Source: Candidatus Rokuibacteriota bacterium
GTDB lineage: Bacteria; Methylomirabilota; Methylomirabilia; Rokubacteriales; CSP1-6
DNA length: 64,000 bases
NCBI GenBank assembly: GCA_030647435.1
Contig: JAUSJX010000097.1
Coordinates: 62,001-126,000 of the forward strand
Reading direction: 5' to 3'
Below the pieces are notes generated by a model. That model saw nothing but the letters and a program-made list of their open reading frames with translations. It was not told the origin of the DNA and did not search any database. Of this stretch, positions 63,343 to 64,000 are shown piece by piece. Made by a program: the position numbers and the translations under genes. Numbering within the stretch: position 1 is the stretch's first letter; each line of letters begins with the position of its first letter.

Positions 63343-63858
63343 TCAGTCCACTTCGATCTTCAGCGCATTGCAGATGCGCGTGGTGGCGTTGGCCGTGGCG
63401 ACCGTCACCGCCAGCTCGACCAGCTCCCGGTCCGAGAGGTGCTTCCGGAGATCCGCGTCCAGCGCCTCGTCCGTGGCGGCAGTGGCCGTGAGCTGCTCCG
63501 CATAGCGGATCACCAGATGCTCGAGCTCACTGTATTCGGCTGGATTGTCCCCATGGGTGGCCAGTCCTTCCATCTGCGCCTTCGTGAGCCCCACCCTCTG
63601 ACCGAGGGCGATGTGCAGGGCGACTCAGTAGTCGCAATGGTTGAGCTGGGCGGTCCTGAGATAGGCCAGCTCCCGCAGCTTGCGGTCCAGCCGCATCTCC
63701 TTGAGCGCCACGCTGAGCGTCACGTAGCCCTCGAGCGCTCGGGGGGAATGCGCCACCACTTTGTGGAAGTTCAAGACGTGCCCGACCACCTTCTGGGCCG
63801 TGTCGTACGGGTGATCCGTCGGAACCTGGTCACGCTCGAGAAACGGTACAAGCGCCAT
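63343..63858 (-). CDS. AhpD/carboxymuconolactone decarboxylase-family protein with in-frame TGA (candidate selenoprotein, CxxU)
   Basis: Two minus-strand frames join in one phase across a single TGA (63627-63625) into a 171-residue protein. The N-part ends RKLRELAYLRTAQLNHCDY, then TGA, then VALHIALGQRVGLTKAQMEGL. AhpD/CMD enzymes have a CxxC-xxx-H redox motif exactly here, so TGA replaces the second Cys: C-D-Y-U-V-A-L-H (Sec at residue 78). The rest (NPAEYSELEHLVIRYAEQLT, ELVELAVTVATANATTRICNAL) is intact and typical of the peroxidase-related branch. A SECIS-like hairpin follows the TGA. GGGGAGGA precedes the ATG. A DsrE-like gene lies upstream. The alternative is a nonsense mutation or sequencing error. 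Confidence 0.85.
63591..63611 (-). promoter_or_regulatory. SECIS-like hairpin of the CMD gene
   Basis: Minus-strand stem UCGCCCUC (63611-63604) with GAGGGUGG (63598-63591), 8 pairs including two G-U, and a 5-nt loop GGUCA (63603-63599). The loop starts 22 nt after the UGA. E. coli fdhF has its GGUCU loop 19 nt after the UGA, so position and loop sequence fit a bacterial SECIS. Confidence 0.6.
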
Positions 63859-63871
63859 GTCTTCCTCCCCC

Positions 63872-64000
63872 CTAAATCGAAATTACGTGTTTCGCCTGGT
63901 AGCACTTTTCGGCGAATTCATCTGACTTCATCCTCGTCGCCTTGCCTTTTATGTCGTTGTCGTCGACCTCACGGGCCGTCATGCAGGTGTCTCAGCAGTG
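63872..64000 (-). CDS. DsrE-like protein C-terminus with in-frame TGA (candidate selenoprotein, cut by window end)
   Basis: The minus strand from 64000 reads, through one TGA (63994-63992), H-C-U-D-T-C-M-T-A-R-E, then DDNDIKGKATRMKS, DEFAEKC and YQAKHVISI before a TAG at 63874-63872. The pattern CxxC-x-x-AR-x(n)-DI-x-G, then an amphipathic helix and a final VISI strand matches the C-terminus of DsrE/TusD-like proteins, which carry sulfur or thiol redox chemistry at this loop. The UxxC motif makes Sec plausible. It lies 13 bp before the CMD start and shares its direction. The assignment is from 42 residues only. Confidence 0.55.
63964..63978 (-). promoter_or_regulatory. SECIS-like hairpin of the DsrE-like gene
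   Basis: Minus-strand stem CGGCC (63978-63974) with GGUCG (63968-63964), one G-U pair, and a loop CGUGA (63973-63969) beginning 19 nt after the UGA. The G in the second loop position fits bacterial SECIS rules. The stem is short (5 bp). Confidence 0.45.

Follow-up and report, generated by a model that had tools for sequence, protein, structure and literature searches.

Does a single in-frame TGA in an otherwise open AhpD-like gene interrupt the protein, or does it encode selenocysteine (Sec)? This question is raised by a CMD-family gene at positions 63343..63858 on the minus strand of the 64,000-nt stretch of DNA that we analyzed (the window). As defined by its translation and its orthologues, the gene encodes 171 residues (MALVPFLERD...LNHCDYUVALHIALGQ...KIEVD) between an ATG start and a TGA terminator, and it is preceded by a ribosome-binding site, GGGAGG, at 63864..63869 (minus strand), 5' of the ATG at 63858. 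The only internal stop in the frame is a TGA at codon 78 (63625..63627, minus strand). The Pfam CMD model (PF02627), for which the cut-off is 23 bits, spans this TGA and scores 52 bits, bearing out a preliminary description in which AhpD/CMD sequence continued on both sides of one TGA in a minus-strand frame that was otherwise open. Likewise, the model of the AhpD core domain, TIGR00778, scores 40.1 bits against a cut-off of 27.8, with Sec standing for the second Cys. A blind scan of the whole 64,000-nt window found no other TGA with coding-like flanks and a nearby Cys.

The position of the TGA within the protein is informative. Alignment of the motif E63-x11-C75-D-Y77-U78-xxx-H82 places it exactly at the second Cys of CxxC-xxx-H, as had been described, so that the Cys-x-x-Cys and His of the AhpD relay are all represented, with Sec replacing the second Cys. 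The closest solved structure is that of PA0269 of Pseudomonas aeruginosa, an AhpD-like peroxidase (PDB 2ijc, 2o4d) whose relay consists of Glu36-Cys48-Tyr50-Cys51-His55 (PMC3141380). The catalytic stretch of the protein described here (63613..63672, minus strand) has the identical Glu-x11-Cys-x-Tyr-Cys-xxx-His spacing, and Sec78 corresponds to Cys51 of PA0269 and to Cys133 of the M. tuberculosis protein. PA0269 differs in having Cys where our protein has Sec and in having a shorter N terminus. A structure predicted from six sequences has a pLDDT of 47.6, which is low confidence, and our conclusions are instead drawn from sequence. None of the named NCBIfam families has the protein as an equivalog. 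The best-scoring NCBIfam model, NF053654 (GroundWater_YciW, a YciW-related (seleno)protein), aligns to residues 19-168, yet its 68.7 bits lie far under the curated cut-off of 310, and the peroxidase-related subfamily TIGR01926 reaches 57.3 bits against a curated cut-off of 81.8.

Conservation of the TGA was assessed among relatives. All 14 Sec relatives compared in detail (90 to 39% identity) have TGA at residue 78, and among the loci retrieved the TGA aligns there at identities from 89 down to about 30%; the nearest of these relatives come from several genera and families. Cys is found at this residue in four outgroup or paralogous proteins: L004, encoded on contig 141 of the same genome, L033 from Acidobacteria, L034 from Andreprevotia and L035 from Saprospiraceae. 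The in-frame UGA thus lies where homologues have Cys, and both types of homologue that the preliminary description had proposed to look for, with Cys or with TGA at residue 78, were found. A class-wide search of 95 genomes returned matches in 68 of them, and among the matches listed, internal stops occurred singly and were always TGA. Since the same TGA occurs in independent genomes, a sequencing error is very unlikely. The codons 5' and 3' of the TGA give dN/dS values of 0.094 and 0.107, respectively, for a pair with 89% identity and of 0.12 and 0.16 for a pair with 75% identity. These ratios are equally low on both sides, indicating that the part after the TGA is translated and under selection. 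The AhpD-like gene is almost certainly a selenoprotein gene and not a pseudogene.

Insertion of Sec in bacteria would be expected to involve a bSECIS hairpin, and one with the sequence CGCCCUC-GGUCA-GAGGGUG is present at 63592..63610 (minus strand), identified by its fold, by synonymous constraint and by conserved pairing. Its stem begins 14 nt, and its loop 21 nt, after the UGA. One of the 7 bp in the stem is a G-U pair; counting a closing U-G wobble as well gives 8 bp, and on that count the earlier claim of an 8-bp hairpin with loop GGUCA at the right distance is acceptable. The published bSECIS model specifies a loop of 3-9 nt, a stem of 4-16 bp, a G in the first two loop bases, a UGA-to-loop distance of 16-37 nt and an MFE of at most -7.5 (PMC13188914). 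With a 5-nt loop starting with G, 7 bp, 21 nt and -18.4 kcal/mol, the hairpin falls within each of these limits, which was a further check proposed in advance.

The raw fold energy is unremarkable when compared with shuffled sequences (z about -1), and the argument that the hairpin is real is therefore made from its conservation and not from its energy. In an alignment of 15 sequences, the strongest synonymous constraint is seen at codon 88, where AGG or AGA is used in 14/14 sequences with Arg against 17% expected, and at codon 86 (GGT in 11/15 against 15% expected), and codons 85 and 84 are likewise within the top seven of 124 sites; as the compared sequences are related, the underlying z values serve as ranks and not as probabilities. 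Pairing of the stem is retained in 92.4% of cells in these 15 sequences, compared with at most 56% when the stem is slid. At two stem pairs, substitutions occur in both arms of the stem, one case being the exchange of C-G for U-A in L051. Covariation is modest since the hairpin hardly varies, and most of it traces to the basal pair, whose bases do not pair in 6/15 sequences. One sequence, L052, is mismatched within the stem.

A paralogous clade has a hairpin of its own, CCGCUUC-GUC-GAAGCGG, which is intact in 8/8 of its Sec sequences and has 4/7 pairs broken in L004, the Cys paralogue. A hairpin that acts as a SECIS should be lost where Sec is lost, as it is here, and L004 appears, from its sequence, to have undergone replacement of Sec by Cys with loss of the SECIS. 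L004 groups weakly (80/93) with L054 and L055, Sec relatives from the same genus.

The host genome (5.79 Mb, 98.5% complete), whose lineage we take to be the phylum Methylomirabilota, encodes the machinery that Sec insertion would call for. The genes selA (584 bits) and selB (380 bits) adjoin tRNA-Sec (71 bits; anticodon UCA according to ARAGORN) on contig 56, and selD (343 bits) is found on contig 98 (L072). The selD gene has an in-frame TGA of its own (SYAACAGUASKMGPGDL) and is itself a selenoprotein gene. Every one of the components that the preliminary description had proposed to seek in the same genome is therefore present. Its reading of the gene as a functional selenoprotein is favored by the sel genes and tRNA-Sec, by TGA or Cys at residue 78 and by the SECIS comparison, and the outcomes it had named as contrary and that could be computed did not occur. 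Among named records, Candidatus Rokubacteria CSP1-6 comes closest, at 89% identity, followed by Candidatus Rokuibacteriota AR22 at 70%, and the host genome shares its family with a genome bearing the CSP1-6-like sequence (L037, the same match as L031).

Three explanations that do not involve Sec were weighed against these results. A change of TGC to TGA takes one substitution, and a usable GTG stands at the start of the 3' fragment, as might be found in a decaying pseudogene whose Cys codon (TGC or TGT) had mutated. Such a gene would not be expected to keep the same TGA across genera and families, down to approximately 40% protein identity, to be under purifying selection after the TGA equal to that before it, to be free of other damage or to reside in a genome with full Sec machinery. 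The conserved TGA and the low downstream dN/dS rule this explanation out, and we regard it as extremely improbable. Genome-wide reassignment of TGA, for example to Trp or Gly, would account for the open frame and nothing further. It conflicts with a tRNA-Sec bearing the UCA anticodon and with aligned homologues that, where they do not have TGA, have Cys and not Trp or Gly; moreover, TGA serves as the terminator in the AhpD-like gene, in the contig 169 paralogue and in selD. We rejected reassignment and assign it a negligible probability.

It could also be proposed that two fragments are made separately, the second from the GTG at 63594, 3' of the TGA, and associate as two proteins without Sec. 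This arrangement would divide the active site, with C75 and H82 on different polypeptides. It is likewise at odds with the conservation, as protein, of residues 79-88, which lie 5' of the GTG, and it leaves the synonymous constraint in the hairpin unexplained. On these grounds separate fragments were rejected, being very improbable. Standard gene callers do split or truncate genes of this kind, which leads to underestimates of the selenoproteome in uncultured bacteria from soil and the subsurface.

A second gene may bear on the function of the AhpD-like selenoprotein. The 3' part of a DsrE-like gene occupies 63872..64000 on the minus strand, and the gene continues past the edge of the window to equivalent position 64234 (L066:1875-2234). 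Its TAG stop lies 13 nt 5' of the AhpD-like ATG. The product scores 52.4 bits against PF02635 (cut-off 22.7) and has a UxxC motif (U-D-T-C) whose first residue is encoded by a TGA at 63992..63994 (minus strand), as in known DsrE-like selenoproteins. In its own genome the motif reads IHC-U-DTC. The TGA is conserved in L031/L037, L032/L039 and L038; the L038 protein has HA-U-DSC, without Cys before Sec, and we therefore give the motif as UxxC. A candidate bSECIS, GGCC-CGUGA-GGUC, is located at 63965..63977 (minus strand), 18 nt after the UGA. Its fold energy in the window is weak, and it recurs in L037 and L038 with the same stem and the loop CGUGG. The DsrE-AhpD pair with both TGAs is present in four genera, represented by the host genome, L037/L031, L038 and L039/L032, which form one clade with 100/100 support. 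No DsrE neighbor was found within 1.5 kb upstream of the more distant AhpD-like relatives.

Taken together, we are highly confident that the locus is a probable two-gene Rokubacterium operon encoding two selenoproteins, in which UGA78 of the AhpD-like gene is decoded as Sec by way of the hairpin to yield a likely AhpD-like peroxidase or disulfide reductase. The DsrE-like UxxC gene and the AhpD-like CxxU gene would be co-transcribed. SelB-GTP and Sec-tRNA(Sec) would bind the hairpin 14 nt 3' of UGA78 and deliver Sec to the ribosome, and the terminal UGA, without such a hairpin context, would stop translation. In the protein, Sec78 would replace the catalytic Cys51/Cys133 of known AhpDs as the attacking residue, with Cys75 as its resolving partner and with E63, Y77 and H82 forming a proton relay. 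Given that the AhpD relay residues are kept, a thiol/selenol peroxidase or disulfide reductase is the most likely function predicted for this protein, and the DsrE-like protein may be its reducing partner.

DsrE proteins are sulfur-transfer proteins, and this raises a possible but less favored role in which Sec is inserted for something other than peroxide reduction, the two selenoproteins together handling persulfide, selenium, metal or metalloid species. The adjoining UxxC protein, kept in four genera, is in keeping with such a role; retention of all AhpD catalytic residues and the lack of a DsrE neighbor within 1.5 kb of other AhpD-like relatives speak against it. More specifically, and only tentatively, the DsrE-like UxxC and AhpD-like CxxU proteins could constitute a dedicated relay that passes sulfur, selenium or oxidizing equivalents between two Sec centers and is specific to one Rokubacteria clade. 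The pair of selenoprotein genes forms a well-defined unit that can be tested by experiment.

That AhpD-like selenoproteins had already been reported, as the preliminary description stated, is confirmed by the literature. AhpD-like or CMD-domain selenoproteins with CxxU were described from the Sargasso Sea in 2005 (PMC1088965) and from Global Ocean Sampling data in 2008 (PMC2398784), and a 2026 review lists both AhpD-like/CMD-like selenoproteins, with PF02627 and TIGR01926, and DsrE-like UxxC selenoproteins (PMC13188914). The gene described here shares with the former the family, the Sec at the second Cys of CxxU and a SECIS just downstream, and differs in having a DsrE-like partner upstream; its DsrE-like neighbor, in turn, differs from the latter in being followed directly by an AhpD-like selenoprotein gene. 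Because the CxxU type dates back to 2005, and the review (PMC13188914) cites a Methylomirabilota genome for which 63 selenoproteins are predicted, the AhpD-like gene adds to an already known kind of selenoprotein. New relative to the literature examined, in which we found no report of it, is the DsrE(UxxC)-AhpD(CxxU) pair, of which an earlier description is possible.

The TGA-containing genes seen in the host genome are in line with the report of that 63-selenoprotein genome. Six of its 17 CMD-family matches have one TGA each, in 6/6 cases at the second-Cys position; five are CxxU, and one, on contig 169, is NTHU, without the first Cys. The five besides the gene in the window are on contigs 29, 38, 106, 167 and 169 (L067, L068, L070, L071 and L069, respectively). 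A single genome thus combines six CMD genes in which TGA occupies the redox Cys position with a selD gene and two DsrE-like genes that each have an in-frame TGA. The other DsrE-like gene with an in-frame TGA, L074 on contig 48, has the motif U-G-S-C.
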